IMG/VR virus record: IMGVR_UViG_3300049794_000013
Coordinates: 1-42,805 of that record
Strand: one strand, 5' to 3'
DNA: 42,805 bases
DNA from: a virus
The notes beneath the pieces are model-generated. The model saw nothing but the letters and a program-made list of their open reading frames with translations. It was not told where the DNA came from and searched no databases. The position numbers and the translations under genes are program-made. Shown here in pieces: positions 2,909 through 41,577 of the stretch. Each line of letters starts with the position of its first letter. Position 1 is the first letter of the stretch.

Positions 2909-2950
2909 TCCGCTACTCGTCGCTTTGTGGACAGGAGAGAGGAAGCGACG

Positions 2951-3169
2951 ATGGCACCAGCAATCATGCAAAAGTCCTCAGAGACCGGCATCACCTATTG
3001 CGCTGAATGCCGCCAGTTCATCGCGGGGCGCCCGTGGTGGTTGCGCATTACTGGCGAGTCTGGCGGCACGCTTGCAACCGGTCACTATTGCCAACCCTGC
3101 GCTAACAAGTGGCTCACCGCGAAGGCGCATAACGAGCAGCCCGGCTACGGGCCAAGTTACGTGAAGTAG
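2951..3169 (+). CDS. Small CxxC/CxxC zinc-binding protein (72 aa)
   Basis: Two knuckles, CAEC near residue 17 and CQPC near residue 47, are separated by a short beta-like region, which fits a treble-clef or zinc-ribbon fold. ATG 2951 follows AGGAGAGG at 2933-2940; an upstream in-frame ATG at 2927 has no comparable site. The stop codon lies inside a strong RNA hairpin (3166-3195). The target is unknown. Confidence 0.62.
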   Translation: MAPAIMQKSSETGITYCAECRQFIAGRPWWLRITGESGGTLATGHYCQPCANKWLTAKAHNEQPGYGPSYVK

Positions 3170-3195
3170 TCCGCAAAGGCCCCTTTGCGGGCTAC
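3166..3195 (+). other. 13-bp RNA hairpin between two early genes
   Basis: GTAGTCCGCAAAG at 3166-3178 pairs with CTTTGCGGGCTAC at 3183-3195 (one G-U pair) across a four-base GCCC loop. The stop codon of the upstream gene is within the 5' arm, and the Shine-Dalgarno AAGGAG of the next gene follows immediately at 3201. No U-tract follows, so it is more likely an mRNA-stability or processing hairpin than an intrinsic terminator. Confidence 0.6.
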
Positions 3196-3433: not shown

Positions 3434-3921
3434 CCATCGCGAACCTGGCGCATGTGCGTCCTGGCGAGTCACCGGCACGCACGCTGGCACGCATCAGTCG
3501 CGCGGCGCACAACGCGGACCTTGAAGCGGAGTTGTTTCGCGACCTTGATGGGCTATGGCGCACGGCGGGCTGGCCTGAGCCGCACCCACAGGTCCACTTC
3601 CACCCGCTGCGGAACTTTGCGATAGACATCGCATTTTTCCAGCCGCATCTGCTGGCGGTCGAGGTGGACGGCGGCACGTGGGGCAGGCGCAACCCGCGCA
3701 CGGGCGAGTGGGAACGCGGCAAGCCCGGCGGCCACACCAGCGGCGCGGGCTATCAGGCGTCATGTGAGAAGGGCAACGAGCTGGCAATTGCGGGCTGGCC
3801 GCTGCTGCGGGTGACGGGCAATGACGTGCGCAGTGGCGCGGCACTGGAATACATTCGGCGGGCGCTACACCTGCCGCCGCTGGTGGCGCGGCCTGACGTG
3901 CCGTGGGACTACCAAGAGTAG
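3430..3921 (+). CDS. PD-(D/E)XK-type nuclease-like protein (163 aa)
   Basis: The core reads FAIDIAFFQPHLLAVEVDGG, then a His/Gly-rich stretch, CEKGNELAIAGW and PLLRVTG. This D...ExD...K pattern is typical of the Vsr/DUF559 branch of PD-(D/E)XK nucleases, with the predicted metal-binding Asp and Glu on adjacent strands and the Lys on the following helix. I start it at ATG 3430, overlapping the previous stop. It sits directly before a Dam-type methylase, so a role in DNA repair, host-DNA breakdown or junction resolution is plausible but unproven. Confidence 0.68.
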   Translation: MTIANLAHVRPGESPARTLARISRAAHNADLEAELFRDLDGLWRTAGWPEPHPQVHFHPLRNFAIDIAFFQPHLLAVEVDGGTWGRRNPRTGEWERGKPGGHTSGAGYQASCEKGNELAIAGWPLLRVTGNDVRSGAALEYIRRALHLPPLVARPDVPWDYQE

Positions 3922-3935
3922 AAAGCGGGCGGCGA

Positions 3936-4802
3936 ATGGATGTTACACACGCGACACGGGCACGTGCGCCCTTCCCGTACTACGGGGGCAAACAGTATCT
4001 CGTGCCGCTGCTGCTCTCACTGTTGCCGCCGCATGACACCTACGTGGAGGTGTTCGGCGGGGCTGGCTCGCTGCTGTTTTCCAAGCCGGCCGCGGCCGTG
4101 GAAGTCTACAACGACCTCGACAGCGCGCTTGTGACGTTCTTCCGCGTGCTGCGCAACCCACGGCAAGCGGCACGGCTGCGCACGCTGTTGGACCTGACAC
4201 CCTACAGCCGGGAAGAGTTGGCGGCATGCCGCGCGTGGGACACGGCGACGTCACCGACAGAACGGGCGCGGCGCTGGTTTATCTGTTTGCAGCAGAGCTT
4301 TGCCGGCCGCGTAGACGCCGGCGCGGGCTGGCGCTTCACGAAGCTGCCAAGTCATAACCCCGCGCAGAGCTACCGCGGAAGTATTGCGCGCCTACCAGCA
4401 TTCACCGCGCGGCTGGCGCATGTGCTGGTGGAGCATCAGGACTTCGCGCGCGTCCTGCGGCTCTATGACACGCCGGCGACGCTGTTCTACTGTGACCCAC
4501 CCTACCTGCCAGAGACGCGGGCCAGCCACGGTTATCCTTGTGACATGACGCTGGAGGACCATACACGACTACTGGACCTTGTGCGCGGCCTGCGCGGCAT
4601 GGTGATGCTCTCCGGCTACCGCTCGGCACTCTACGATGGGGCGCTCGCGGGCTGGCACCGCGTGGACAAGCGCACGCTGAACATGGCAGCGAATACCAGG
4701 CGGGACGCGCGGATGGAGTGCATCTGGCTCAGTCCCAATGCCACGGCGCATCAGCCGCAGCTGCCCTTCGGTGACGACCAGGAAGCAGGCGAGTCAGCAT
4801 GA
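3936..4802 (+). CDS. dam: DNA adenine-N6 methyltransferase, Dam/D12 class
   Basis: The 288-aa protein carries the class-alpha order of motifs: PYYGGK at residues 14-19, the S-adenosylmethionine motif VEVFGGAG at 37-44, and the catalytic DPPY at 187-190. Length and order match Dam-type D12 enzymes, which methylate the N6 of adenine in short sites such as GATC; the actual site cannot be read. ATG 3936 gives a normal N-terminus, while the longer frame from 3903 overlaps the nuclease gene. Phage enzymes of this kind protect the genome from host restriction. Confidence 0.9.
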   Translation: MDVTHATRARAPFPYYGGKQYLVPLLLSLLPPHDTYVEVFGGAGSLLFSKPAAAVEVYNDLDSALVTFFRVLRNPRQAARLRTLLDLTPYSREELAACRAWDTATSPTERARRWFICLQQSFAGRVDAGAGWRFTKLPSHNPAQSYRGSIARLPAFTARLAHVLVEHQDFARVLRLYDTPATLFYCDPPYLPETRASHGYPCDMTLEDHTRLLDLVRGLRGMVMLSGYRSALYDGALAGWHRVDKRTLNMAANTRRDARMECIWLSPNATAHQPQLPFGDDQEAGESA

Positions 4803-5406: not shown

Positions 5407-5435
5407 AGTATACACACGTCACACATACTTGACAA
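5407..5435 (-). promoter_or_regulatory. Sigma70-like promoter for the 5364 regulator
   Basis: Read on the minus strand, TTGTCA (5435-5430) and TATACT (5412-5407) are separated by 17 nt. The start codon at 5364 lies 42 nt beyond the -10. The -35 overlaps the -35 of the opposite promoter by five bases, so the two face away from each other. Confidence 0.6.
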
Positions 5436-5456
5436 GCCGGGCGTGCCAAGTATACA
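5429..5456 (+). promoter_or_regulatory. Sigma70-like promoter for the 5570 operon, with repeated AGTATACAC boxes
   Basis: TTGACA at 5429-5434 and TATACA at 5451-5456 have a 16-nt spacer. Both this -10 and the opposite one sit inside related boxes, AGTATACACACGTCACAC from 5407 and AGTATACACTACACACGTG from 5449, which look like paired operators. A third AGTATACACA lies at 173-182, before the first early operon. Confidence 0.6.
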
Positions 5457-5569
5457 CTACACACGTGACACACGTAGTTCACGCCGGACGATGAAAGGCG
5501 GTGCAACACTCACGAATAGCGAACCTTGGAACAGTGAAACGACCACAAAGAAACGAGCAAGAGAAGACG

Positions 5570-8750: not shown

Positions 8751-8948
8751 ATGAGTATGCAGGTGCATGTCATTTTGCTGGCTATAAATAGTGCCTTTAC
8801 CTTGGGACTCGCTGCTGAGTGGCGCTGGATGCGTGACGACCTGCCGCGCTGGAATGTGCGGCTGATCGTCGGTATGATTGTCGTCAACATCGGCGTTATC
8901 GCGCTCAATGCCGTCTATCTTGGCGCGTTGGCGCTCGGGCACACGTAA
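8751..8948 (+). CDS. Small membrane protein with two predicted helices (65 aa)
   Basis: GGGAAGGA precedes ATG 8751. Two hydrophobic segments, about residues 6-22 (VILLAINSAFTLGLA) and 37-60 (LIVGMIVVNIGVIALNAVYLG), flank a short charged loop (RWMRDDLPRW). It ends the replication block, just ahead of the packaging-operon promoter. Holin-like or superinfection functions are possible, but nothing in the sequence decides. Confidence 0.6.
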   Translation: MSMQVHVILLAINSAFTLGLAAEWRWMRDDLPRWNVRLIVGMIVVNIGVIALNAVYLGALALGHT

Positions 8949-8970
8949 CCGCCGCGCCGCAGGAGTGATG

Positions 8971-8996
8971 TGCTACAGTACTGTTACGTCAAGTAG
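8971..8996 (+). promoter_or_regulatory. Promoter/operator module of the packaging operon
   Basis: TGCTACAGT (8971-8979) is an extended -10-like element followed by GTTACGTCAAGTAG (8983-8996). The whole module aligns with TGGTATAGT...GTTATGGTCAAGTAG before the portal gene (14422-14446). A perfect 10-bp palindrome, ACAGTACTGT, covers 8975-8984. No -35 hexamer is evident, which suggests an extended -10 promoter or one using an activator. Confidence 0.6.
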
Positions 8997-9027: not shown

Positions 9028-9708
9028 ATGTTTACGACTGAGGACGTGGCGCTAGCGCACTTACAGCCGCACCCACGCAACTATCGCGCACACCCCGACG
9101 ACGAGATATCCCATCTCATGGAGTCCATCCAAGCCAACGGGGTGTACCGCAACGTGGTGGTGGCACAGGATGGGCGCACGATCCTCGCCGGACATGGCGT
9201 CGTAGAGGCAGCGTCACGCCTCGGTCTAGAGACGCTGCCCGTCTACCGCGTTGAGTACGGCAAGGACGACCCACGAGCGCTCAAGCTGCTCGTCTCGGAC
9301 AACGAGATTAGCCATCTAGCCGAAGTGGATGATCGTGCGCTCACTGAACTCTTGCGCGAGCTACAAGCGGGTGAAGCAGAGCTCCTGGGCACGGGCTACG
9401 ACGAGGCGATGCTGGCCAACCTGCTATTTGTGACACGACCGGCAAGCGAGATACGCGACCTGGACGCCGCCGCGCAGTGGGTGGGGATGCCGGACTATGA
9501 CGAGGGACCGGGGCGTATCCAGCTCCTACTCAATTTCATGAGTGAAGAGGACCGCGCTGAATGCTGTGGCCTCCTAGGCGTTGACGCGACTGCGGTGGCG
9601 AACGCGAAGACAGGGCGTGGGTGGTCCGTCCGCTGGCCCGTCCGTCCGTATGATGATTCGCGCGCCCTCGCGTTTACCGCCGGGGAAGGGGATGATGATG
9701 ATGAGTAA
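9028..9708 (+). CDS. ParB-like nuclease/CTPase-domain protein (226 aa)
   Basis: The N-terminal half has the ParB/Srx order: LQPHPRNYRAHPDDEI, a helix ending SIQANG, VVVAQDGRTILAGHG, and AASRLGLETLPV. The GHG version with downstream DNEI is typical of stand-alone phage ParB proteins found near methylases or modification genes, rather than chromosome-partition ParB. ATG 9028 follows GAGG at 9015-9018. The stop overlaps the repeated ATGATGATGATG start of the glycosyltransferase, so the pair is translationally coupled. A link to DNA modification or packaging is inferred from context. Confidence 0.8.
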   Translation: MFTTEDVALAHLQPHPRNYRAHPDDEISHLMESIQANGVYRNVVVAQDGRTILAGHGVVEAASRLGLETLPVYRVEYGKDDPRALKLLVSDNEISHLAEVDDRALTELLRELQAGEAELLGTGYDEAMLANLLFVTRPASEIRDLDAAAQWVGMPDYDEGPGRIQLLLNFMSEEDRAECCGLLGVDATAVANAKTGRGWSVRWPVRPYDDSRALAFTAGEGDDDDE

Positions 9709-10624
9709 GCGCGTCCTACCGCGTTACCCTATCTACATCCCCTCGAAGGGGCGCGCCGACTGCTGCTTTACCGCGCGCTGCCTCGCGGACGGCGGTGTCC
9801 CGTTCTCGCTCGTGGTAGAGCCACACGAGGCGGACGCCTATGCGGCGCGGTTCGGGAGTGAGCGTCTCCTCGTGCTCCCCTTTCGGGATCGGGGGAACGT
9901 TATCCCGGCGCGTAACTGGATCCTGGAGCATGCGCAAGCGAGCGGAGCCGTACGGCATTGGACGTTGGATGACAATATCCGCCATTTCGGGCGCCGCTAC
10001 CGTGCTAAGCGGCTATATTGTGAGCCTGGGATCGCGTTGCGGGTCTGCGAGGACTTTACCGATCGCTATGAGAATATCGCGATTAGCGGACTGAACTACT
10101 ACATGTTCGTGCCCGACCACGAGCGCATTCTACCGGTCCAAGTCAACTGCCACGTCTACTCGTGCATGCTCATACGCAACGACCTACCGTACCGCTGGCG
10201 TGGGTACTACAACGAAGATACGGACCTGTGCCTACAGGTGCTCGCGGGCGGCTGGTGTACTGTCCTGCTGAATACGTTCCTGGCCCAGAAGCTTAAGACG
10301 ATGGTAGTGAAGGGTGGGAATACCGCCGCGCTCTACCAAGGCGATGGCCGCCTACGCATGGCGCGCTCACTTGAGCGGATGTGGCCGGGTGTGGTAACGA
10401 CCGAAAGGCGCTTTCAGCGCCCACAGCACGTCATCAAGGATAGTTGGAAACAGTTCGATACGCCGCTGAAGCTGAAGCCTGGCATGTCGCTGGAGCAGCT
10501 TGCAGCGCTGCCGGTAGACGAGTATGGGATGGCGCTCATGCAAGTGGGTGAACAGATCAAGAGTCCGCACATCCGCGCGCTACTTACCGACTGGCAGCAG
10601 ACGCACACAGGTGAGGCATCCTAA
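9701..10624 (+). CDS. GT-A fold glycosyltransferase of the TET-associated (TAGT) type, possible DNA-modifying enzyme
   Basis: The protein opens with YPIYIPSKGRAD, followed by a Rossmann-like half and HWTLDDN with D90-D91-N92 as the predicted metal/nucleotide-sugar motif; NEDTD at 171-175 resembles the acceptor-side motif. This layout fits TAGT-type phage glycosyltransferases, which are associated with sugar addition to oxidised pyrimidines in DNA. Four in-frame ATGs (9692, 9695, 9698, 9701) lie behind GGAAGGG, so the exact start is uncertain. No TET/JBP or hydroxymethylating enzyme is visible here, so the substrate is open. Confidence 0.72.
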   Translation: MSKRVLPRYPIYIPSKGRADCCFTARCLADGGVPFSLVVEPHEADAYAARFGSERLLVLPFRDRGNVIPARNWILEHAQASGAVRHWTLDDNIRHFGRRYRAKRLYCEPGIALRVCEDFTDRYENIAISGLNYYMFVPDHERILPVQVNCHVYSCMLIRNDLPYRWRGYYNEDTDLCLQVLAGGWCTVLLNTFLAQKLKTMVVKGGNTAALYQGDGRLRMARSLERMWPGVVTTERRFQRPQHVIKDSWKQFDTPLKLKPGMSLEQLAALPVDEYGMALMQVGEQIKSPHIRALLTDWQQTHTGEAS

Positions 10625-11077: not shown

Positions 11078-11869
11078 GTGGACACTGTCGGTATCTGGAG
11101 TGAATTGCACCACAAGAACGACCGCGTGGCCTTCGCCCGCCGTGCCGGCTTTGACCCGGAAGAGTGGCAAGCGCGCGTGCTGCACAGCGAGTCGCCGCGT
11201 ATCCTGCTCAACTGCTCACGTCAAAGCGGCAAGAGTAGCACGGTGGCCGTGCTGGCGTGCCACACGGCGCTCTACGTGCCCAACAGCACCACGCTGATCG
11301 TGAGCTATGCGCTACGCCAGAGCGTCGAGTTGTTTCGCAAGGTGGTGAGTCGTGGCACAGTCGTCTCCTACATGCCCACGATGGTTCTGGGTGCCACACA
11401 AACGAGTTTCGAGTTTGACAATGGCTCGCGCGTGGTGGCGCTTCCAGGCTCTGAAGCCTCCATACGCTCATTCAGCAACGTGCACACGCTGTTATTCGAT
11501 GAGGCGTCGCATGTGCCGAATGAGACATATGAGGCGGCGCGCCCCGTGGTAGCGGCCACCGGTGGCGGGCGTATCATCGCCCTGTCGACGCCGTACGGCA
11601 CTCGTGGCTGGTGGTACGAGGCCTGGCGCGATGAGACGAGCGAGGCCGAGCCGTGGGAACGCTACCGCGTGAAGGCGTGGGAATGCCCGCACATCAAGCC
11701 CGAGTTTCTGGCACATGAGAAGCGCCGCATGGGCAATTGGTGGTTCGACCAGGAATACGGCACGGAATTCCGCGATGCGCAGGATGCGGTATTCCGCCAG
11801 GAAGACATTGACCGCATGTTCAGCGAAGACTACGACACGTGGGACTTGGGGGGAGGCGACAACGCATGA
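11078..11869 (+). CDS. terL: Terminase large subunit, ATPase half (separate gene)
   Basis: GTG 11078 starts a 263-aa protein with Walker A CSRQSGKS (residues 46-53), Walker B LLFDEA (Asp141-Glu142) and the coupling motif ALSTPYGTRGWW. These are the motor motifs of a large terminase. The chain stops at residue 263 without the RNase-H nuclease domain that normally follows; that domain is in the gene at 12619-13392, with three small genes between. Its TGA overlaps the next ATG. The gene shows no frameshift scar, so the split looks stable. Confidence 0.92.
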   Translation: MDTVGIWSELHHKNDRVAFARRAGFDPEEWQARVLHSESPRILLNCSRQSGKSSTVAVLACHTALYVPNSTTLIVSYALRQSVELFRKVVSRGTVVSYMPTMVLGATQTSFEFDNGSRVVALPGSEASIRSFSNVHTLLFDEASHVPNETYEAARPVVAATGGGRIIALSTPYGTRGWWYEAWRDETSEAEPWERYRVKAWECPHIKPEFLAHEKRRMGNWWFDQEYGTEFRDAQDAVFRQEDIDRMFSEDYDTWDLGGGDNA

Positions 11870-12362: not shown

Positions 12363-12622
12363 GAGGCTTCAAAGGCTATAGAGACAACCCGCCAGAGTCC
12401 TATGCTGCGGTTGATGCCGGTCTCACGAACCTGGGAGACCTGCCAGACTATGAGGGGGTCATTTTTGAGGATGGCACGGTTGCGGTACGCTGGCTAACGA
12501 CCTTCCGTTCACATGTCATCTGGCCCAACTATGACACGTTCTATGCCGTCCACGGCCATCCCGAGTACGGCACGCGCATCGAGTGGTTCACGCTCGTGCC
12601 AGAAGTGAGTAGCGAGCCATGA
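12359..12622 (+). CDS. Hypothetical protein between terminase halves (87 aa, GTG start)
   Basis: The GTG start overlaps the upstream stop (GTGA) and the stop overlaps the nuclease ATG. The protein is rich in aromatic residues and beta-like sequence (DYEGVIFEDGTVAVRWLTTF, then WPNYDTFYAVHGHPEYG). It may be a small structural or binding domain; no match is recognised. The strict chain of overlaps from 11866 to 12619 suggests stoichiometric co-translation with both terminase halves. Confidence 0.6.
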   Translation: MRGFKGYRDNPPESYAAVDAGLTNLGDLPDYEGVIFEDGTVAVRWLTTFRSHVIWPNYDTFYAVHGHPEYGTRIEWFTLVPEVSSEP

Positions 12623-13392
12623 GCACCAGTGACCCCACGTCCATCCGTGACCTGCTAGGCCGTGTGCGGGCCGTACATATCGGCGTCGACCTGGGCCAGA
12701 CGGTCGACTTCAGCGCAATAGCCGTGGTGGAAGTGGGCGAGCGACCGTCAGATCGCATGTATAAAGACTGGCGCACGGGCAAGATGGTCCCGGTACCCGA
12801 AGCCACCTACCGCGTGCAGCGTCTACAGCGGCTAGACCTGGGGACGGCCTGGGTGCTGATTGCCGCGCGAGTCGTGGACGTGGTGGCGAGTCTATGGGAC
12901 TGGGAAAAGAAGCTACGCACGGCCGGTGCGTTACTCCCCAACGGTCCACAACTGCCATGGGATATCTGGGCCGATGCGACGGGCGTAGGCAAGCCGATCA
13001 TGGAACTCATCGCCAACGGGTTGGAAGCCGAGCCACGCACACGGCGGGCACGGCTACACCCCGTGAAGTTCTACCACGGCGACGAATTTAGGCGCGGACA
13101 ACTGGACGACGGCACGACGGACGCGCTGGGCAAAGCCTATCTCGTCTCGCGGTTGCAATCGTTGGCGCAAGCGGAACCGCCGCTGCTTAGGTTGCCGCCA
13201 CGTGACCCGGAAGCGCAGACGATGATGCAAGAGCTGAAGGACTACAGGATCAAAGTTGACACCGATGCCAATGATCGGTATGGGGCCTTCAGCACGGGCG
13301 CACACGACGACCTGGTGACGGCGCTGGGCCTAGCATGCATCGAGGAGCCGGGGTACTACAGCGTGGAGAGTGGGCCGAATCTGTGGCCGTAG
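12619..13392 (+). CDS. Terminase large subunit, nuclease half (separate gene)
   Basis: The 257-aa protein has the RNase-H-fold pattern of terminase nucleases: VHIGVDLGQTVDFSAIAVVE with Asp24, IWADATGVGKP with Asp119, and GAHDDLVTALGLA with Asp230-Asp231. These acidic residues would hold the two metals that cut DNA during packaging. The protein lacks Walker motifs, which are on the gene at 11078. The two products must work together, either by non-covalent contact or via the small proteins between them. Start and stop are clean. Confidence 0.9.
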   Translation: MSTSDPTSIRDLLGRVRAVHIGVDLGQTVDFSAIAVVEVGERPSDRMYKDWRTGKMVPVPEATYRVQRLQRLDLGTAWVLIAARVVDVVASLWDWEKKLRTAGALLPNGPQLPWDIWADATGVGKPIMELIANGLEAEPRTRRARLHPVKFYHGDEFRRGQLDDGTTDALGKAYLVSRLQSLAQAEPPLLRLPPRDPEAQTMMQELKDYRIKVDTDANDRYGAFSTGAHDDLVTALGLACIEEPGYYSVESGPNLWP

Positions 13393-13936: not shown

Positions 13937-14202
13937 CACGCCTCACACGCATCGTCTGCGACAACCCGGACTGCAAGGCGCAGGTAGAGATGTTCGCTGG
14001 CGAGTACTTCATGCACTATCAGGGTATGGAAGATACGCCAGTTGGCTGGTATCGCCTGACGTACTACGAGCCGAAAGCAGTAGACGCTACGGTGGCAGTG
14101 CTGAATCCGCACGAACCGCGCTATTTCTGCTCGGTGGCCTGCGTGCGTGAGTTCACCGGCCATGCGAAAGAGCCGCAGACGCGCGAAGGGAACACCCGAT
14201 GA
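13933..14202 (+). CDS. Small zinc-binding protein (89 aa)
   Basis: IVCDNPDCKAQV near the N-terminus and FCSVACVREF near residue 74 form the C-x4-C...C-x3-C arrangement of a treble-clef zinc site, close in look to FPG/MYM-type fingers. Between them is a strand-rich stretch. It overlaps its neighbours by 4 nt on both sides. Target unknown. Confidence 0.6.
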   Translation: MTRLTRIVCDNPDCKAQVEMFAGEYFMHYQGMEDTPVGWYRLTYYEPKAVDATVAVLNPHEPRYFCSVACVREFTGHAKEPQTREGNTR

Positions 14203-14402
14203 GCGATGATGAGGATATCCCCATCCCCGTGACCGCCGAAGAGTGGCGAGACGCCTACTGGCGCCACGTGCCGATGTACCAGGCGGAGAACGCGGAGTTA
14301 CGGAAGCACTTAGCGGAACTCTACGCACGCGAGTGGGGAGCGCCTGAGCACAGCGGTCCAGGTGAGTATCGTTGGCCGCCGCCCGATGCGGAAAAGCCAT
14401 AA
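14199..14402 (+). CDS. Hypothetical acidic protein (67 aa)
   Basis: The protein begins with an acidic stretch (MSDDEDIPIPVTAEEW), then a helical part with QAENAELRKHLAELYAREW that could form a short coiled coil, and ends in a Pro-rich tail. It overlaps the upstream gene and is the last gene before the portal promoter and leader. No family is recognised. Confidence 0.5.
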   Translation: MSDDEDIPIPVTAEEWRDAYWRHVPMYQAENAELRKHLAELYAREWGAPEHSGPGEYRWPPPDAEKP

Positions 14403-14421
14403 CCCATACGCCGCGCGCTTG

Positions 14422-14446
14422 TGGTATAGTTGTTATGGTCAAGTAG
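14422..14446 (+). promoter_or_regulatory. Promoter/operator module of the structural operon
   Basis: TGGTATAGT at 14422-14430 is an extended -10 (TGn-TATAGT). It is followed at 14432-14446 by GTTATGGTCAAGTAG, which would cover the start of transcription. The module matches 8971-8996 in order and spacing, and its 15-bp box recurs with one change in the lysis promoter. No good -35 lies 17 nt upstream. Confidence 0.65.
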
Positions 14447-14450
14447 CCAG

Positions 14451-14538
14451 AGACCTTGGCCTCCACTTCTAGACCGGGCAACCAAGGGTCTAGGGGCGTG
14501 TCAAGCACCCTCTGGCCCTTCGGGGCACCTTCCCCTAG
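14451..14538 (+). ncRNA. Structured 5' leader with mutually exclusive hairpins before the portal gene
   Basis: The roughly 140-nt untranslated leader can form hairpin A (AGACCTTGG 14451-14459 with CCAAGGGTCT 14482-14491, one bulge), hairpin B (CTAGACC 14469-14475 with GGTCTAG 14487-14493, 11-nt loop) or hairpin C (CTAGGGG 14490-14496 with CCCCTAG 14532-14538). All three use bases 14487-14493 or part of them, so only one forms at a time. Inside C lies GCCC-UUCG-GGGC at 14515-14526, a classic tetraloop hairpin. No U-tract follows. The layout resembles an attenuator or ligand-sensing switch controlling late translation. Confidence 0.6.
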
Positions 14539-14578
14539 CCGTTCGCATCACACCGGCCACAAGCGAGTACCGTAACCG

Positions 14579-16189
14579 ATGCCCTTGCCGTTGCCGACGC
14601 AAACGCTGTACGAGACCCAGCACAAGTACTGGGGCGACGAAGCCGACTATGCGCAGATGGACCCCGCGCAGGCGATGGCGCTGCAAGACAAGGCGTACCA
14701 CGGCAACTTCAAGAAGCCGCTGAAGCGCACGACGGACAGCGAACCCGACCACAATGTCTTGGACAACCGCTGCGAGCCGATTGTCAGCACGGGCATCGAC
14801 TTCCTGTACGGCGACGAGCTGACGTGGGAAGTGCTCGAGGACGACGGCGAGACGCCCGACGAGGCGGCACAAGAGCATCTCGACGCGGTATGGGACGCCA
14901 ACGTCAAGATGCCGTTACTGGCTGAGTATGAAATTACCAGCGCGAACTTTGGGCATGGCTTCTGCAAGCTGGACCCCGACGATGCCGACATGCCGGCGGC
15001 GCCTAACGGCACGCCGATCCCCGCTATCCTCGTGCTCAACCCCATGCAGATGTCCGTCACGACGGCGCCGGCGAACATTCGCAAGGTGCAGCGCTATAGC
15101 TTCGCCTATCAGGACGTGGACCCGGTATCGGGCGCGATTGCGGACTTCCGGCAACTCACCGAGCGCGACCTCGATATGAACGGGCAGCCGGTATCCGGTT
15201 GGCGCGTCGTGGATCAGATCAAGCGCACGAGTGGCACGGGTAATGACACCATCGCGGCGGTGCTCTCACTGCTGACCCCGAAGACGCAGGCGGAAGAGGA
15301 TCGCCAGTGGGAGACGGTGAGCAGCGAGCAGTGGCCGTATGCGTGGGCGCCGATCCACGACGCGAAGAACATGGCCGAACCCAATAGCTACTGGGGCAAG
15401 GCAGACTTACGGCTCGATTTGATTCATCTCAATGATGTGCTGAATTTCCTGCTGTCGAATCGGCAGCGCATCCTGTACTACCACGGGCATCCGCAGGACT
15501 GGGGCTTCGGCTTCCATGCGCGTGACATCGACGTGTCCCCCGGCGGCATGCCGTGCATTCCCAACATCAATGCCAAAGTGCAGCATATCGAGATGACGGG
15601 CGACCTGGCGGCGCTGAACCTGGCGATTGAAGACGTGCGCGAGAGCATGGACGAACTGTCGCATGTGCCGGCGCTCGCGATTGGGCGGCTGAAGAACTTG
15701 CCGGGCGTGCCGTCGGGTGTCGGCATGAAGGTGGCGTGCCGTCCGCTGATAGCGCAGACACAGCAGAAGCGCGTCATTCGCACGGCCATGTTCATCAAGT
15801 TAAATCAACATATCCTAGAGTTGGGGGGATTCGGTGCCGACCGCAAAATCCAGCTCCACTGGTCCGATATGCTGCCGACCGACGACCTACAATCCGCGCA
15901 AGAGGCGCAGATTTGGGTGTCCGCGCTGGGTGTGTCACAAGATAGCGCGATGCAGCGTATGTCCCCCCCGTTTGACCCAGACGTGGAGCGGCAGAAGAAG
16001 CAGGACGAGCAAGCGGCGGCACTGAAGCAGCAACAGGCGACGCTGCAAATGCAGGCGGCATTCGCCCCACCGGATACGGCGCCCGGTCAGTCTACAGGTC
16101 AAGCGAGTGACAGCCCCTCGTCCAGCCCGAAGGCCGGCCAGGCGCCCTCAACTGCGTCTAAGGCGAAAGCGAAGAAGCCGGTAAAGTGA
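14579..16189 (+). CDS. Portal protein
   Basis: The 536-aa length, position after the terminase, and internal sequence (DNRCEPIVSTGIDFLYGD near residue 65, acidic EDDGETPDEAAQ, long helical middle) fit a siphovirus portal, the dodecameric ring at the DNA-entry vertex. The C-terminal 80 residues are Gln/Ala-rich (QQQATLQMQ), then Ser/Pro/Lys-rich, as in many portals. The ATG has no clear Shine-Dalgarno, so the leader structure may control access. It is the first gene of the long late operon. Confidence 0.85.
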   Translation: MPLPLPTQTLYETQHKYWGDEADYAQMDPAQAMALQDKAYHGNFKKPLKRTTDSEPDHNVLDNRCEPIVSTGIDFLYGDELTWEVLEDDGETPDEAAQEHLDAVWDANVKMPLLAEYEITSANFGHGFCKLDPDDADMPAAPNGTPIPAILVLNPMQMSVTTAPANIRKVQRYSFAYQDVDPVSGAIADFRQLTERDLDMNGQPVSGWRVVDQIKRTSGTGNDTIAAVLSLLTPKTQAEEDRQWETVSSEQWPYAWAPIHDAKNMAEPNSYWGKADLRLDLIHLNDVLNFLLSNRQRILYYHGHPQDWGFGFHARDIDVSPGGMPCIPNINAKVQHIEMTGDLAALNLAIEDVRESMDELSHVPALAIGRLKNLPGVPSGVGMKVACRPLIAQTQQKRVIRTAMFIKLNQHILELGGFGADRKIQLHWSDMLPTDDLQSAQEAQIWVSALGVSQDSAMQRMSPPFDPDVERQKKQDEQAAALKQQQATLQMQAAFAPPDTAPGQSTGQASDSPSSSPKAGQAPSTASKAKAKKPVK

Positions 16190-18019: not shown

Positions 18020-19753
18020 ATGCCGTCTCGCCTTGCACTGCCCGCGCGGCAGTTCCGGCAGAAGCCGCCCATGGGCGCGACGCTGGATCGTACCCACCCG
18101 CAGGCGCGTGGTCTCGTCGCGTTCTTCCTGGAGAATGAGGGCGCTGGCAAACTCGTCTACGATCTGGCAATCCCAGGACGCACGAGCACGATCCCGGCAG
18201 CGGCTGTGTGGCAAAACAGCGTCTATGGCCCGCAACTGCTCGCGAGCACCACCGTCACGCAATCCTGCACCTTCAGCAGTAACCCCGCGCTGGCGTCGGG
18301 CGCCGTCAGCTACGAGGTACTCTATCTGCACGGCGCGAGCATCGCAGGCTTTGCGGGCCTGCTGATGACCGCTTCTGAGGGCGCCGGCTTTGCTATTAGT
18401 AACAATCACTTTAACATTGACCAGGGCGCCGGCACGAGCAACACCACCGCCCTCGTGGTGGGCACCTACTATCACGAGGTGTTCGTGGTCGATGGCAGCG
18501 GCACGAACCGCTATTACTTGAACGGCGTAGCCGACGGCACCGACACCACCAGCGGTATTAGCACCACCCTCACCTTTACGAACTGGCTAGGCGACGGTAT
18601 TGCCGTGCCCACGTCCAGCAGCATTGTGTACTGGCGCCTGTGGAACCGAGCGCTGCTGTCCGGTGAAGCGATGGCGCTGTTTACCGACCCCTTTGGCATG
18701 GTCGCAGCCCCCGGCGAAGCCGGTCACACCTACGCGGTGCTCGGCAGTCGTCCGCTGGCAGCGCCGTCCCCTGTCCTGAGTGCGGCGCTTGTGGCCGGTA
18801 GCCGTCCCGCCGTGGCGCCCTTCCCGAACCTGGCCGTACTCGCCTCCCCACCGGCTGGTGGCATTGTCAGCGGCAGCGTCTCCTTCATCAGCAACAGTGT
18901 GCTGGCCGAATCTGCGCAGCTCGTGGCACCCGCCACAGTGCAAGCCAATAGCGTGCTCGCTGAAGCAGCACAAGTCCGCGCCCCGGCGACCGTCCAAAGC
19001 AACAGTGTGCTGGCCGAAAGTCTTGTGCAACTGCTAGCGCCAGCGACCGTGCAGAGTAACAGCCTGCTGGCCGAAAGCGTCCAGATTGTCGAGACGACGG
19101 CGGACCTGGCGCTCGTGCAGGCCAATAGCGCCCTGGCGCTGCCCACGGCGCAGGTCGTAGACCCGTCCATCCCGGTGCAGTCGAATAGCGTGCTGAACGT
19201 CACGGGCGGACTCGCGGGCCAGGGCGGCGGCACCATCATAGCCAACAGCGCCCTTGCGGAAGCGGCGCAAATCGTCGCGCCGGCTACCGTGCAGAGCAAC
19301 AGCGCCCTGGCGGCGGCGGCACAACTGCGCACCGTTGCCACACCACAAGCCAACAGCGTGCTGCAAGAGACGGTGGCGCAAGTCGTGGCGCCGGCTGTCC
19401 TGCAAAGCAATAGCTTGCTGAGTGTGACCGGTGGGCTAGCGGGCGGCGGGTTCGTTCAAGGCGGCGTCTCCTTCGCCAGTAGCAGTGCGCTTGTGCAACA
19501 ACCGGCACAACTACGTACGCTTGCCACGCTGCAAGCCAACTCGGTGCTCAGTGTGACGCCGCAGGGCACTGGCCCGACGACGATCGTGGTGACCGATGCG
19601 CCCCTGTGGGCTACGGCGCTCGCAGACGCGCCCCTGTGGGCCACCGCACTCACGGATGCACCGCTAGCAGCGACCGGGCTAGGCGATGCGGGGACCGCCG
19701 CCACGAGCGTCGCAGATACACCACTGGTGACCACTATCCTCACGGACGCCTGA
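18020..19753 (+). CDS. Adhesin/fibre-like protein: LamG-type domain plus two repeat regions (577 aa)
   Basis: Residues about 30-235 look like a LamG/concanavalin-type beta-sandwich (LVAFFLENEGAGKLVYDLA, RYYLNGVADGTD, YWRLWNRALLSGEAMALF), a usual carbohydrate-binding fold. From about 287 to 513 come some 11 imperfect repeats built on APATVQSNSVLAEAAQ. The end (about 522-577) has shorter repeats on TDAPLWATAL. Repeats of this type make extended rods. It sits between portal and scaffold, so it may be a head fibre rather than a tail fibre. Start ATG 18020 follows GAGGGGA. Confidence 0.68.
   Translation: MPSRLALPARQFRQKPPMGATLDRTHPQARGLVAFFLENEGAGKLVYDLAIPGRTSTIPAAAVWQNSVYGPQLLASTTVTQSCTFSSNPALASGAVSYEVLYLHGASIAGFAGLLMTASEGAGFAISNNHFNIDQGAGTSNTTALVVGTYYHEVFVVDGSGTNRYYLNGVADGTDTTSGISTTLTFTNWLGDGIAVPTSSSIVYWRLWNRALLSGEAMALFTDPFGMVAAPGEAGHTYAVLGSRPLAAPSPVLSAALVAGSRPAVAPFPNLAVLASPPAGGIVSGSVSFISNSVLAESAQLVAPATVQANSVLAEAAQVRAPATVQSNSVLAESLVQLLAPATVQSNSLLAESVQIVETTADLALVQANSALALPTAQVVDPSIPVQSNSVLNVTGGLAGQGGGTIIANSALAEAAQIVAPATVQSNSALAAAAQLRTVATPQANSVLQETVAQVVAPAVLQSNSLLSVTGGLAGGGFVQGGVSFASSSALVQQPAQLRTLATLQANSVLSVTPQGTGPTTIVVTDAPLWATALADAPLWATALTDAPLAATGLGDAGTAATSVADTPLVTTILTDA
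18880..19560 (+). repeat. Array of ~45-60-bp imperfect coding repeats
   Basis: Units built on CCGTGCAGAGCAACAGC and GTGCTGGCCGAA recur about eleven times between 18880 and 19560, in frame with the fibre gene. Spacing is irregular and some units carry Gly-rich insertions (CTGGCGGGCC-type around 19209 and 19430), so this is a protein repeat, not a CRISPR or iteron array. Confidence 0.75.
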
Positions 19754-20715: not shown

Positions 20716-20726
20716 TATGGTATGCT
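20716..20726 (+). promoter_or_regulatory. Extended -10-like element immediately before the scaffold gene
   Basis: TGGTATGCT (within 20716-20726) matches the TGGTATAGT/TGGTATACT elements at the portal, lysis and 38-kb promoters. TTGACA lies at 20688-20693, but its 22-27-nt spacing is too long for a normal sigma70 pair. Transcription from here would begin close to the ATG, so it may serve a shorter scaffold product or none at all. Confidence 0.35.
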
Positions 20727-34067: not shown

Positions 34068-34687
34068 TGGACATGCTCGATGACATCTCGAAGGAATTGC
34101 CGACGAACGGGATGAAGGTCGCGGACCTCATCAGTGCCTTCAACATGCGGCTGGGCTACGTGAGCACGGCGCTGGCCCAACTCGACAAACGGCGGGATGC
34201 CATTGATGCCAAGCTTGAAAAAAAGCTGGATGAACAGGATAGGAAGCTGGATGAACTCGCGGCCTTTCAGGCGCGCTCCCCGACACGGGCGGACCTGGTT
34301 GAAATGCAGAAGGCGCAGTTGCTGCGTGAGACCTATGAGATTTCTCACCAAGTCCTGGTCACGCAGATAGCCGCAGCGCGGGGCGATATCGCCTCCCTAC
34401 AAGTGGCACGGAGCGCGGAAGACGCACGGGTGGGCGACTTGCTGCGGGCCGCAGATAAGACGCATGCGGACCAGAATCTCGCGCTGAAGTCATTAGAAGA
34501 CCGGGCAAAAGTCTCGGAAGGCGCCATCACGGGACTCCAGGGGTCCGCAGCAAGTATGCCTAGTGTACGACGGAGCCAGATTGCCCTGGTCCTGACGGCG
34601 CTCGGCATCTTCGTCGCCCTGTCGTGTAGCGGGCTGGGCACGCTGCTCACCGTCGTGGAACTGGTGTTGCACGCGACAGGACATTAG
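34067..34687 (+). CDS. Coiled-coil protein with C-terminal membrane anchor (206 aa)
   Basis: Most of the protein is charged and helical, with strong heptads (KRRDAIDAKLEKKLDEQDRK), and residues about 175-200 are hydrophobic (IALVLTALGIFVALS), so it likely sits in the inner membrane with a cytoplasmic coiled coil. It lies at the end of the tail operon and meets the holin gene stop-to-stop (overlap at 34684-34687). That position suggests a lysis or membrane function; nothing more can be claimed. Confidence 0.6.
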   Translation: MDMLDDISKELPTNGMKVADLISAFNMRLGYVSTALAQLDKRRDAIDAKLEKKLDEQDRKLDELAAFQARSPTRADLVEMQKAQLLRETYEISHQVLVTQIAAARGDIASLQVARSAEDARVGDLLRAADKTHADQNLALKSLEDRAKVSEGAITGLQGSAASMPSVRRSQIALVLTALGIFVALSCSGLGTLLTVVELVLHATGH

Positions 34688-35088
34688 GCCGCCGCTGTTG
34701 GCTCAGTACTCACTGGCGGCATGACCGGTGCGGGCTTATTGCCCACGTCCGACGGGCCAGCCTTCGCTGCTTTGATGCGCTTGCTGGCGGTCACGATCTT
34801 GAGCGGCTGGCTCGGCGCGGGCACCACGTCGGTCTGCGCTGAGTGGTACTTGACGACGGCTGCAATCAGCGCGACAACGAACGGCAGGAAGACCTGACTG
34901 CGTATCTGCTCCCAGAAGTTCGTGCCGGTGCCACTCAACGCCGCATAGATCGTCGGCAGGTTCAAGAGCAGCCAGCCCCCCATCGAGAAGCTGAGATACT
35001 GCCAGAACTTATAGTTGGCGCGCTCCCAGGGGGTCATGGTCTGGCCGTCGGCAGCCATGGCAAACAGAGAGAATGGATAGATGTTCAT
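34684..35088 (-). CDS. Holin-like membrane protein (134 aa)
   Basis: Two hydrophobic segments, about residues 34-51 (LSFSMGGWLLLNLPTIYAAL) and 66-80 (VFLPFVVALIAAVV), are joined by a polar loop and followed by a basic, Pro-rich tail (ASKRIKAAKAG). This is the class II holin layout. Its ATG overlaps the stop of the upstream endolysin gene. The two would be co-transcribed leftward, so holin pore timing and endolysin release are coupled. Confidence 0.74.
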   Translation of the reverse strand: MNIYPFSLFAMAADGQTMTPWERANYKFWQYLSFSMGGWLLLNLPTIYAALSGTGTNFWEQIRSQVFLPFVVALIAAVVKYHSAQTDVVPAPSQPLKIVTASKRIKAAKAGPSDVGNKPAPVMPPVSTEPTAAA

Positions 35089-36074
35089 GCGGCCGCCTCC
35101 ACTAAGAGCGCGCGCAGCCCCTTGCCGAGCGCCGCATCCTTCGCCGTCTGCGGGTCCACTGTCGGCGTCGTCTCGCCCGCTTCCTCTGCCGCGTTAGCGG
35201 CCTTGAGTGCGGCAATCTGCGCTTCCAGGTTCGTATTCAGCGCCGGCCAGTTTGGCCCCACGACCTCGTTGGCCGCTGTCTGGCCCCACACGAGGGACAG
35301 CGCGAAGTCCTGCCGTGCCGGGGTGCCGTACTCGCCAGTGAGCGGCATGAGCGCCGCAGGCCACGCGGCGGCATCGAGGATGTGCTGGCGGAAGCCATGC
35401 CCGACCGTCCCGCCATTGGGCGCGGTTAGCACGCCGTTCGCGTCTCTCCAGCCACCAGGTACGCCTGCCATGGGAATGCTCACTTTCGCTGCGAACGCCA
35501 GCGCCCCGCACGGTTGCGCGGCGGCTAGGATGGCGTCGGGGTAATACTGGAGCACGTCCCCAGCGGCGAAGTTGTCACCGTCCACTGCCCACCATCCCAC
35601 CGGTAGGTCACGACCTGCTCGTACGGAAAACCCGCCAGCGTGATAACCGACGATCCCGATAAAGTGGTAGTGGAGGTTTGTGGCGTTTTCGCCTTGTCCG
35701 CTGATGCTGTCTCGTAAGGCTTGTCCATTGGCCGTCTCCATAAGGATGTAGCTGTGGCCGGCGTGCGCCAGGTAGAACGCGCGCCAGCCGCTCACGCCAT
35801 CGGCCGGCCATGGCTCCCCATAGCCCCGGTAGGCGGTGAGCGGCATGCCCAGATTGCTGGCTTCTTGGTGCAGGGCATCGAGCGTGCTCGCGCCACTGGC
35901 CGCGCATAAGCCGCGCCGGTACATGTCGGTGTATACATCATATGTAGCGGGCTGACCGGCTTGTGTTGACCAGCGTACGCCCATGGAAAGCGCATTCGGG
36001 CCACATGCACCAGTCAGATTCCCGACGAACTCTGTCTCGCGATGGATAGCGCCGGGGAGGATAGATTCGGCCAT
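35085..36074 (-). CDS. Endolysin with papain/C39-like cysteine peptidase domain (329 aa)
   Basis: GACGPNALSM places a candidate catalytic Cys24, LHYHFIGIVGYHAGG gives a His at 137, and WWAVDGDN supplies a possible Asp/Asn partner, together the order Cys-His-Asp of papain-like peptidases that cut peptidoglycan stem or cross-bridge peptides. The C-terminal third is helical and Ala/Thr-rich, perhaps for wall contact. It lies beside a holin, which supports a lysis role. Export would depend on the holin; no signal peptide is seen. Confidence 0.78.
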   Translation of the reverse strand: MAESILPGAIHRETEFVGNLTGACGPNALSMGVRWSTQAGQPATYDVYTDMYRRGLCAASGASTLDALHQEASNLGMPLTAYRGYGEPWPADGVSGWRAFYLAHAGHSYILMETANGQALRDSISGQGENATNLHYHFIGIVGYHAGGFSVRAGRDLPVGWWAVDGDNFAAGDVLQYYPDAILAAAQPCGALAFAAKVSIPMAGVPGGWRDANGVLTAPNGGTVGHGFRQHILDAAAWPAALMPLTGEYGTPARQDFALSLVWGQTAANEVVGPNWPALNTNLEAQIAALKAANAAEEAGETTPTVDPQTAKDAALGKGLRALLVEAAA

Positions 36075-36095
36075 GCGGCGGCGTGCTTTCGCTTC

Positions 36096-36127
36096 GTTAT
36101 GGTTAAGTAGCTAGTGCTACTATACCA
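36096..36127 (-). promoter_or_regulatory. Promoter/operator of the lysis operon
   Basis: On the minus strand TGGTATAGT (36127-36119) is an extended -10, 44 nt from the endolysin start. Just after it, 36110-36096 carries the same 15-bp box as the portal promoter (14 of 15 bases, GTTATGGTTAAGTAG) but in the opposite orientation, over the first transcribed bases. This ties lysis to the structural operon by a shared control site. Confidence 0.62.
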
Positions 36128-36138
36128 TACGGAGGCGC

Positions 36139-36429
36139 TCAGAACCTGCCGAAAATCACCCACGTTGCATCAATCTCACGCAGGCTGCCGTCTTCTAGCA
36201 TGGCGATCTTGCATTCAACACCTGGCTCTGTGGTGAGGGAGTCAGGGTGTGCCGCTACGCGGAATGTGGCATCCATGGATGCGAGCACATATTCGTGCGG
36301 GAACTTCGCCGCGCGCTGATACGTCATCTTAGCGTCCTCAACAATCTCCGTAACCCGCCGGCCAGGGTACTTCTTTTCCACGAACGCGCGCACGATCTGA
36401 TGCCGCGCTTCTAACTCTTCAGCGTTCAT
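36139..36429 (-). CDS. Hypothetical protein (96 aa), last gene of the membrane/HTH operon
   Basis: I start it at the minus-strand ATG at 36429 (MNAEELEARHQ), 11 nt inside the upstream gene, rather than at 36585, which overlaps that gene fully. The product has helix EARHQIVRAFVEKKYPGRRV and strands DATFRVAAHPDSLTTEPG, MLEDGSLREIDATWVIFG. No family recognised. It ends just short of the lysis promoter. Confidence 0.55.
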   Translation of the reverse strand: MNAEELEARHQIVRAFVEKKYPGRRVTEIVEDAKMTYQRAAKFPHEYVLASMDATFRVAAHPDSLTTEPGVECKIAMLEDGSLREIDATWVIFGRF

Positions 36430-36661
36430 TGCGTCGCCTGCTCTCAATTCGCCGCTGCCTCGCCTCACTGTCGGCGTCATAACGGCGCTGCCACTCATCC
36501 ACGAGCCGATGCATTTCCGCCGCCGCCACGTAGATGGTGATGGTGCGTGCATTCGCGCCCTCAATCTCCCAATTGAGTTCGACAAGCAACTCGTGGAAGG
36601 TTGCGGTTAGCCGCGCCCCTGGCTCGCCGCCCAGCACGAGCACATCATCTTCATCCCTCAC
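36419..36661 (-). CDS. Hypothetical protein (80 aa, GTG start)
   Basis: GTG 36661 overlaps the upstream TGA (GTGA) and has GGAAGAGG 7 nt before it; the ATG at 36697 gives a longer overlap and no better site. The protein has a strand-rich start (DVLVLGGEPGARLTATFHEL) and a basic helix at the end (RRYDADSEARQRRIESRRRN). No family is recognised. Confidence 0.58.
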   Translation of the reverse strand: MRDEDDVLVLGGEPGARLTATFHELLVELNWEIEGANARTITIYVAAAEMHRLVDEWQRRYDADSEARQRRIESRRRNER

Positions 36662-37611
36662 TGTGCTACCTCTTCCCGCTGTCGGCTTTCTTGCCATGCA
36701 CTATACAACTCGTTGGCCGTGGTTTGCGCACAGTTCAGGATACCGCGTAACGCCTTCCGGCTCATGGTCGGGTCATGGTCCAGCGCGTCAAAGGCGGACG
36801 CCCGCAAGCCCGCTGCCCTAGCCCTCTTCCGAACGTTCTGCCGCTCGGCTGCCGTGGTGCGGCGTGGCATCAGGTGTAGGGCTGCTTGTGCGCTTGGCTC
36901 TACTGCTGCCGCGAGAGTGTCAGGAGCGATGTCAGTAGCGGGGCGGGAAGCGGCGGCAGGCGTACCCGGTCCCGTCGGTGGCGAATCGTGGTCATAATAT
37001 GACAACTTTTTGCCAAGCCCTGCGGCGGCCACGTCCCGCCAGCCCAGCGCCTTCCGCATCCGCACCTGTGCCCGCAACGGTTCAAGCGTCAATTCGCGTT
37101 CGAGTTTCGCTTGCTCATCAGCAATGGTGGCGGATTTAGGTGCGGCGTAGCGCAGGACACCGGATATCACCACGAGCGCAACGGCGAGTACGGATCGTTG
37201 AATGATCCACGTTGTCGAGTCCATGCCGAGCTGCGCCAGTGCCGCACTGGTAGTGATGCCTTCCGCTTGTTGTGTGGCGAATACCTGCGCCGCCACGAAG
37301 GCCACATAGGCGAGCGCTAGCACGAGTACGGCGTAGCCTGCCGCACGCCAAGGATGGCCCGTCTGTGCGGCCCGGCTCAGCTTCACACTTGAGCCGATGA
37401 GCTGCCCGTCCAGACCCACCGCCATTGCCACGGCCCAGCCATAGAGCAACCCCGGTTGCGTGGTGAGTAGCTTCCCATCGGTCATCAGTGAGATAAGGCC
37501 GACAAGGATACCACCGGTCAGCACAGGGCCAGAGCAGATCGTTAAGAACTCTTCCCACCAGTGAAAGAAGCCGGCGATAGCAGCCAGCATCGGCAGTTCG
37601 CGCTCGTTCAT
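36658..37611 (-). CDS. Multi-pass membrane protein with C-terminal helix-turn-helix-like region (317 aa)
   Basis: Residues 1-160 hold about four hydrophobic segments (ILVGLISLMT, LLYGWAVAMAVGLDGQLIGS, YAVLVLALAYVAFVAAQVFA, SVLAVALVVISGVLRYAA). A charged cytoplasmic linker follows, then from about 255 a basic region, TAAERQNVRKRARAAGL, and SRKALRGILNCAQTTANEL, resembling a helix-turn-helix. A membrane-tethered DNA-binding protein in a lysogeny-side operon could sense stress or anchor DNA. This is inference; no known family is claimed. Confidence 0.62.
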   Translation of the reverse strand: MNERELPMLAAIAGFFHWWEEFLTICSGPVLTGGILVGLISLMTDGKLLTTQPGLLYGWAVAMAVGLDGQLIGSSVKLSRAAQTGHPWRAAGYAVLVLALAYVAFVAAQVFATQQAEGITTSAALAQLGMDSTTWIIQRSVLAVALVVISGVLRYAAPKSATIADEQAKLERELTLEPLRAQVRMRKALGWRDVAAAGLGKKLSYYDHDSPPTGPGTPAAASRPATDIAPDTLAAAVEPSAQAALHLMPRRTTAAERQNVRKRARAAGLRASAFDALDHDPTMSRKALRGILNCAQTTANELYSAWQESRQREEVAQ

Positions 37612-37823
37612 GGCGCGCCCCCTAGCGCCGGCTCAGGGATGAGGTAGGCGTAGTGGTGTTCTGGCAGACGGTCGGCGGCGTGCCTCAGAAGATGCACTGC
37701 ACACCACTTAGGTGCCTGGAATGGCCCAAGCGTGTCGCACGTCGCACACCAGCCATCAATCGGTTCGTCACAGTCGGGTACGCTGCATAATCCGCGCTCG
37801 CGCTGGCGTTGTTCACGGTCCAT
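37608..37823 (-). CDS. Small B-box/CxxC zinc-binding protein (71 aa), first gene of the operon
   Basis: The protein has GLCSVPDCDEPIDGWCATCD and WCAVHLLRHA, a C-x4-C...C-x2-C...C-x2-H pattern like B-box or LIM-type zinc fingers. AGGAGG (minus strand 37837-37832) is 8 nt from ATG 37823 and lies inside the 3' arm of a terminator-like hairpin. It overlaps the membrane-protein start by 4 nt. Confidence 0.68.
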   Translation of the reverse strand: MDREQRQRERGLCSVPDCDEPIDGWCATCDTLGPFQAPKWCAVHLLRHAADRLPEHHYAYLIPEPALGGAP

Positions 37824-37824
37824 G

Positions 37825-37849
37825 AAAAAAGCCTCCTGGGGATGGAGGC
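37825..37849 (-). terminator. Intrinsic-terminator-like hairpin that includes the operon's Shine-Dalgarno
   Basis: On the minus strand GCCTCC-ATCCCCA-GGAGGC is followed at once by six T residues and then C-ATG. The 6-bp GC stem plus U6 is a valid Rho-independent terminator, and the 3' arm is the AGGAGG used to translate the gene at 37823. It could stop transcription or block translation unless something opens it. Confidence 0.75.
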
Positions 37850-38010
37850 AGGGCTTGTGCGGTCGCCAGCACTTAGGTACACTGGCTCTCAGACCCGCCC
37901 TGCGAACTCAGGGTTGGTTTAGCGGGCGGTCGGTGCTGATAACACCGGCCCACCCGCGCACTACAAACACGCTGCGACGATGGCAGATGCGGGGCGCTCT
38001 CGTGAAGCTT
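37850..38010 (-). ncRNA. Structured 5' leader of the membrane/HTH operon
   Basis: From the promoter near 38017 to the start at 37823 lies about 185 nt without a gene. It contains three hairpins before the terminator-like one: 37922-37957 (long GCGGG...CCCGC stem with inner CGGTG/CACCG), 37898-37913 (CCCTG/CAGGG) and 37865-37886 (GCCAG/CTGGC). It resembles a riboswitch or attenuator in layout, but the sequence does not match a known riboswitch consensus that I can identify. Confidence 0.5.
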
Positions 38011-38016
38011 GCCCCC

Positions 38017-38025
38017 AGTATACCA
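38017..38025 (-). promoter_or_regulatory. Extended -10 promoter for the membrane/HTH operon
   Basis: On the minus strand the run is TATGG-TATACT, giving TGn and a perfect -10 (38022-38017). No -35 match lies 17 nt upstream. Transcription would begin near 38010, about 185 nt before the first gene. Confidence 0.58.
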
Positions 38026-40832: not shown

Positions 40833-41048
40833 TCAGGCTGCGACGGGGACGCCTTTTTTCTTGGCACGTGCCTCTGCTAGCACCGCATTCGCATCTTCAC
40901 GCCTCACCAGTTTGATGCGCTTGTCGAATGGGTTCTCTTCCGTCTTCACGATGCCATCCCGAATAAGCTGCGCCATCTTGCCCTTACTTACCCCCATTTC
41001 TGCGCGCAGCTCCGCAATGGTCAGATACTCCTCTCGCATGCTTGCCAT
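40833..41048 (-). CDS. MerR/excisionase-like helix-turn-helix protein, second copy (71 aa)
   Basis: YLTIAELRAEMGVSKGKMAQ followed by a wing with KRIKLVRREDANAVLAEARA is the same HTH pattern as the protein at 5188-5364. ATG 41048 is used because GAGG is 8 nt upstream; ATG 41081 lies further up with only an AAGCGAG-type site. It faces the twin-promoter region across a divergent intergenic space, so it is the best candidate to bind the TTGGTCC boxes there. Confidence 0.76.
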   Translation of the reverse strand: MASMREEYLTIAELRAEMGVSKGKMAQLIRDGIVKTEENPFDKRIKLVRREDANAVLAEARAKKKGVPVAA

Positions 41049-41109
41049 CGTCTGTGCCTCGCCTCCTGTGGACCTGCTCATGTCTCGCTTAGAACTGTCT
41101 CGTACCTAT

Positions 41110-41138: not shown

Positions 41139-41150
41139 GATTGGTCCGAT

Positions 41151-41231: not shown

Positions 41232-41241
41232 ACGGAACAAG

Positions 41242-41502: not shown

Positions 41503-41577
41503 ACAGTTCACACGAGTGGCTGCCCTACCGGCCAGACGGGGATACGAGGAGCACACGAGTTTTGTGCACCAGTCCAA

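Follow-up and report, generated by a model that had tools for sequence, protein, structure and literature searches.

The DNA analysed here, referred to as the window, is the 42,805-nt IMG/VR record IMGVR_UViG_3300049794_000013, a soil phage sequence which is classed as linear and may be incomplete. It contains three intergenic sites, all ahead of gene groups, at which an extended -10 element is followed by a short box (Table 1). In profile searches, a ParB-like protein, a glycosyltransferase, the terminase small subunit and the terminase ATPase were found to be encoded after site 1, and the portal protein (14579-16189) after site 2. The gene that follows site 3 (35085-36074) gave nothing useful in direct profile searches of Pfam, PHROGs, NCBIfam or PDB sequences, and a single-sequence structure model was useless (pLDDT 36.6). 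Relatives of this gene were present in 12 of the 50 related records, the best being 39% identical. Eight of them were scanned; Amidase_2 was found in five, a weak C39-like peptidase match in one and nothing in two. Since five of the eight relatives contain Amidase_2, 35085-36074 very likely encodes an endolysin, with a catalytic part that appears to have been exchanged. The related lysins L384-L391 share a conserved C-terminal domain, which some of them combine with an amidase and others with a peptidase-like part; these are modular endolysins. The adjoining gene 34684-35088 is a putative holin by appearance.

Site 3 falls within a run of minus-strand genes starting near 37823, with ORFs 36139-37823 lying upstream in the same direction. 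The sequence-only reading had placed this site before the lysis genes, which the endolysin homologues bear out, but the site lies inside the run and not at its head. A box-less extended -10 that had been pointed out at 38017 is indeed present. About 170 nt on from this promoter-like element, a strong intrinsic terminator is found at 37849-37831, with a T run that stops at the ORF 37608-37823 start codon; the whole stretch (37831-38025, minus strand) resembles a late promoter with leader and terminator. Another box-less element had been proposed at 20718. Its letters are there, but a role as promoter is doubtful, because it overlaps possible ATG starts of the next gene.

Table 1. Positions of the promoter elements, box copies and inverted repeats in the window
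Feature	Sequence	Position	Strand	Context
Extended -10, site 1	TGCTACAGT	8971-8979	+	before ParB-like, glycosyltransferase and terminase genes
Box, site 1	GTTACGTCAAGTAG	8983-8996	+	3 nt after -10; one base shorter than other forms
Extended -10, site 2	TGGTATAGT	14422-14430	+	before portal gene 14579-16189
Box, site 2	GTTATGGTCAAGTAG	14432-14446	+	1 nt after -10
Extended -10, site 3	TGGTATAGT	36119-36127	-	before probable endolysin 35085-36074
Box, site 3	GTTATGGTTAAGTAG	36096-36110	+	reversed relative to promoter; 8 nt after -10
Fourth box copy	GTTACGTGAAGTAG	3156-3169	+	end of ORF 2927-3169
Extended -10 without box	TGGTATACT	38017-38025	-	head of minus-strand gene run
Box-less element	TGGTATGCT	20718-20726	+	overlaps possible start codons
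Upstream arm, site 1	ACGTAAC	8943-8949	+	inverted match to GTTACGT (8983-8989); overlap with the ORF 8751-8948 stop codon
Upstream arm, site 2	CCATAAC	14397-14403	+	inverted match to GTTATGG (14432-14438); overlap with the ORF 14199-14402 stop codon
Upstream arm, fourth copy	CATAAC	3128-3133	+	gap 22 to GTTACG
Imperfect inverted repeat, site 3		36090-36137	.	22-nt arms 36090-36111 and 36116-36137, 77%, 4-nt spacer

When the window was re-read, all letters and coordinates given before for 8971, 14422 and 36119 (minus strand) proved correct, and the reversed box at 36 kb (GTTATGGTTAAGTAG) indeed agrees with the site 2 box in 14/15 positions. The pattern TGNTAYART occurs exactly three times in the window, at sites 1-3. 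The -10 hexamers of sites 1, 2 and 3 match in 4/6, 5/6 and 5/6 positions, respectively, and TGn adjoins the hexamer at all three. The lack of a -35 that had been claimed for the three sites also held, as the best match to TTGACA at spacers of 14-20 was 2/6, 3/6 and 3/6. The distance from box to start codon is 31, 132 and 21 nt. A structured portal leader was rejected: Rfam gave no match at gathering scores across the window, nor within 14400-14640 when E values of up to 5 were allowed, and the fold z was -0.85. Likewise discarded were a tRNA remnant (no tRNA was found), a mini-gene in the box (ATG GTC AAG TAG; site 1 has no start codon) and a box acting as the -35 of a divergent promoter, for which no opposite-strand -10 was seen by eye at 16-18 nt at sites 1 and 2.

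An exact scan revealed a fourth copy of the box, GTTACGTGAAGTAG, which is absent from the sequence-only reading and differs from the site 1 form by one mismatch. It sits within coding sequence, and the same exact scan found no extended -10 near 3156-3169. Because this copy has no promoter, the module must be more than a component of promoters. Directly 3′ of it, a perfect 9-bp hairpin (CCGCAAAGG-cc-CCTTTGCGG, 3170-3195) is present, which has no T run.

Upstream of the -10 at sites 1 and 2 stands an inverted copy of the first seven box bases, so that the -10 is placed between the two arms; the letters differ between the sites and the pairing is perfect at both. As background, 9.9% of random 100-nt stretches contain a 7-bp pair of any sequence whose gap is 20-40. 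These arms were spotted before the pair pattern was counted, and the pair at 3156, the arms of which agree in 5/6 letters, was found after the rule was set. The pattern C[AG]TAAC-N15-40-GTTA[CT]G has three occurrences in the window, which coincide with the direct box copies 3156, 8983 and 14432 (gaps of 22, 33 and 28, respectively), compared with a mean of 0.13 in shuffles, of which 0/300 gave three. The right arm of the dyad extends into GTCAAGTAG (or GTGAAGTAG). There is no upstream arm at site 3. The imperfect repeat at this site contains the box in one half and the -10 in the other, and its arms read TATGGTTAAGTAGC (box) and TATGGTATAGTAGC (-10). As a half-site, the word has three 12/12 copies in the window; matches of 10 or 11 are absent, compared with 1.7 in shuffles. 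Since it was derived from those copies, only their arrangement counts as evidence.

Box copies are in excess over chance. Four copies in the window differ from one or other of the two box forms by at most one mismatch, two of them defining the forms, while shuffles gave a mean of 0.005 and 0/200 reached four. A 15-mer at three mismatches, taken alone, is not striking, as many matches being obtained in 6/100 shuffles. The likeness of the promoter flanks alone hinges on the width of the search. With six intergenic extended -10 candidates and 30-nt flanks, the best triple was equalled in 0/3000 window draws and 4/3000 intergenic draws, and with 45-nt flanks in 41/3000 and 40/3000, respectively. 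When all 15 extended -10s were admitted with 45-nt flanks, the triple score was matched in 178/1000 shuffles and the pair score in 69/1000. With hexamers of 5/6 the pair score was reached in 2/300, overlapping pairs not being excluded. From the copies, the arms and the site 3 repeat, the shared element looks real and operator-like. No likeness was seen outside the -10 and box region, and a recent duplication of a promoter cassette was rejected on this ground.

Promoter style was examined in 1.325 Mb of non-redundant sequence from 153 related loci. In this sample TGNTATANT was observed 205 times versus 101 expected, whereas three control words were depleted (54, 72 and 60 observed versus 66, 94 and 89 expected). 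TA or TG stands ahead of TGNTATANT in 67/201 cases in the relatives, as it does at sites 1-3. At the right distance, a -35 matching in at least 5/6 positions was found in 22/201 cases, and at a control distance in 8/201. Judged from these counts, an extended -10 without a -35 seems to be the usual kind of promoter in related phages. Extended -10 promoters function without a -35, and sites 1-3 have in common the marks of the extended -10 class with TRTG, that is, TGn before the hexamer and no -35. The box does not belong to this class. Because -35-less promoters look normal in related phages, no activator would be needed at them, and a missing -35 in this phage family is no sign of an activator. 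Within single related records, no two extended -10s have a downstream box in common, as 0/219 pairs scored 11 or more (0.4% between records). The three promoter pairs of this window score 15, 11 and 8, and the first two are unusual because no within-record pair in the relatives reached 11. A search of the literature on extended -10 promoters with phage late genes or Chloroflexi found no paper.

The relatives were phage contigs gathered by alignments of terminase, capsid and portal. Their capsids are mostly 43-54% identical and their portals about 30%, with the terminase also common to them; the closest capsid, on a fragment (L218) that spans only this stretch, is 76% identical. The sequence-only reading had proposed conservation of the box in related phages as a test, and the outcome went against it. 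Across IMG/VR, the -10 and box in direct order gave 0 matches. The box with up to two mismatches was found in 4/50 related records, compared with 5 for the reversed control. In 393 loci a box lay within 40 nt of 3/3754 extended -10s (control 9). Box words in the same 393 loci numbered 2 versus 3 in the control within one mismatch, and 36 versus 48 within two. This non-conservation weakens the claim without settling it, because the relatives are all at least moderately distant. In addition, an extended -10 with a 5/6 hexamer was found at most 250 bases upstream in only 1/39 portal, 0/14 TerL and 1/69 capsid genes of the relatives; by this rule site 2 counts and site 1 does not. As extended -10s are rare before these genes, the promoter layout is not a family feature. 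On the host side, 400 genomes in the phylum of a Chloroflexi genome were searched and 41 had a capsid match. With the best of these at E 5e-40, there is no near prophage in those 400 genomes. The element is likely a private operator set of this phage.

The nearest known systems are the Cluster A stoperators and the Cluster K SAS/ESAS. For Cluster A phages (L5, TipsytheTRex), PMC9283540 describes more than twenty 13-bp asymmetric sites per genome, located in promoters and short intergenic spaces, with an orientation that follows transcription. Like these operators and stoperators, the box is a short asymmetric phage word found at promoters and once at a gene end. Three of the four copies are oriented with transcription, as are the Cluster A sites described there, but site 3 is not. 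Unlike in Cluster A, as portrayed in that source, there are only four copies, the element has inverted arms and an inverted repeat, and no related repressor was seen among the ORFs scanned. For Cluster K, PMC3203893 gives the SAS/ESAS consensus as GGGATAGGAGCCC; SAS lie immediately upstream of gene starts, are numerous in each genome and are conserved across subclusters, and each ESAS is an imperfect inverted repeat of 17 bp whose spacer is mostly 4-13 bp long. The repeated word before genes is similar in this phage, and the 22-nt repeat of site 3 with its 4-nt spacer resembles an ESAS, whereas the arms of sites 1 and 2 are 28-33 nt apart. In contrast to the SAS described in PMC3203893, the box is separated from the gene by 21 to 132 nt and is not conserved. 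Since at least one tested defining feature fails in each comparison, we file the element under neither Cluster A stoperators nor Cluster K SAS/ESAS. The operator-like kind is already known; this phage's version is private.

How the element might act can be considered from its position. Transcription starts about 7 nt downstream of an extended -10, and at this usual distance the predicted starts would lie near 8986, 14437 and 36112. The box core would then cover about +1 to +10 at each of them, and at sites 1 and 2 the right part of the dyad would cover about -5 to +10. Activators rarely bind over a transcription start; as the box would lie over the starts, a repressor is preferred. The fixed place over the start in either orientation would moreover point to a DNA-bound protein and not to an RNA leader. 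We propose with moderate confidence that one operator-like element is present at three putative extended -10 promoters, which are of ordinary type and lack a -35, and that this element is bound by one phage protein, most likely a repressor or roadblock. Positioned on the start site, such a protein would block polymerase or its escape, and the packaging, portal and lysis genes would be kept off until its removal. A roadblock would be in keeping with the box copy that stands at a gene end without a promoter, and stoperator-like action would be a variant of the repressor. That one module is common to the packaging, portal and lysis promoters, as read earlier, is supported, with the fourth copy and the inverted arms strengthening it. 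Of the single phage activator or repressor then proposed, one DNA-binding protein is plausible, but an activator is not implied by the missing -35. Profile searches with a part of the window's ORFs, in a record that may be incomplete, turned up no regulator gene, and 40833-41081, the one small HTH candidate, is weak. Besides this, the lack of conservation, the variable arm spacing (22, 28, 33), the stop-codon overlaps, the place of copy 4 in coding sequence, the non-significant wide-flank likeness (178/1000) and the missing upstream arm of site 3 count against the proposal. If the element is real, it offers a handle on late-gene timing in a little-known soil phage family related by capsid, portal and terminase, and the box would be a defined DNA bait for finding the regulator.

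A more elaborate form of the proposal, which we consider unlikely, takes the operator word and the extended -10 as two versions of one sequence (TATGGTnnAGTAGC). One protein would then read start and -10 at the three late promoters via flexible dyads (22, 28 and 33 nt, about half helical turns apart), and the promoter-less copy would stop elongation in an early operon. The opposite possibility has a limited but appreciable chance of being right, namely that these are ordinary host-type extended -10 promoters with flanks that are alike by chance and were picked by eye, site 3 being helped by a local palindrome. The 178/1000 shuffles that reach the triple score with every extended -10 and 45-nt flanks admitted, the box that is not conserved in relatives, the frequency of -35-less extended -10s in the family and the promoter-less copy 4 are all in line with chance. 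However, the excess of box copies over shuffles, the arms at every direct box copy and the narrow-flank tests (0/3000 and 4/3000) speak against chance. The late activator of the sequence-only reading, a phage protein at the box that recruits polymerase to weak -35-less promoters, would suit the late phage genes downstream and the absence of a -35 at three sites. We regard it as very unlikely, since the box would lie over the start, where activators rarely bind, since extended -10 promoters manage without a -35 and abound in related phages, and since the box can be reversed or stand without a promoter.

Similarly low is the probability of a true stoperator-type system, in which a repressor with asymmetric sites would halt both initiation and elongation. 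The promoter-less copy at a gene end is oriented with transcription, all three direct copies follow transcription, and L5-type sites, in the account of PMC9283540 that concerns them, likewise lie in promoters and short intergenic spaces in this orientation. Yet there are four copies and not more than twenty, the site 3 box runs against transcription, and no homologous repressor was found among the ORFs scanned, which are part of the window's ORFs. Q-like antitermination, with the box acting in the initial transcribed region as a -10-like element that causes a pause, also seems scarcely probable. The box does resemble the extended -10 (TGGTCAAGT versus TGGTATAGT) and would closely follow the start at both site 1 and site 2, and lambdoid late promoters require a -10-like sequence at this place (PMC6606751); a different promoter (38017) followed by the intrinsic terminator 37849-37831 just before a gene run would fit as well. 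However, the -10-like element here, TCAAGT, matches TATAAT in only 3/6 positions, without the second-position A, and the site 3 box is on the other strand, which leaves sites 1 and 2 only. In addition, 38017 has no box, and the ORFs scanned contain no Q-like protein. Unlike the lambdoid Q late promoters of PMC6606751, the sites have no -35, no -35/-10 repeat and no good -10-like hexamer, and no terminator-like site was listed on the transcribed strand in the leaders of sites 1-3, whereas lambdoid Q late promoters have a terminator there.

Some further features of the window were noted. Early-type promoters with TTGACA and TATACT are found in 41131-41658, where an 81-nt promoter unit occurs twice, 427 nt apart and 83% alike, and there seems to be a divergent promoter at 41131. 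Two overlapping promoter-like sites on opposite strands, with a common TTGACA region, lie at 5407-5458. In the structural region, the 577-aa gene 18020-19753 contains repeats of about 54 bp (18863-19654). The terminase large subunit is split, its ATPase and nuclease parts being separate genes (11078-11869 and 12619-13392) with three small ORFs between them; in Thermus and Meiothermus relatives it is one gene, and in several viral relatives the parts are adjacent. The glycosyltransferase 9695-10624, which adjoins the terminase, is like a beta-glucosyl-HMC-alpha-glucosyltransferase, and a D12 adenine methyltransferase is encoded at 3903-4802; DNA modification by these two enzymes is possible.
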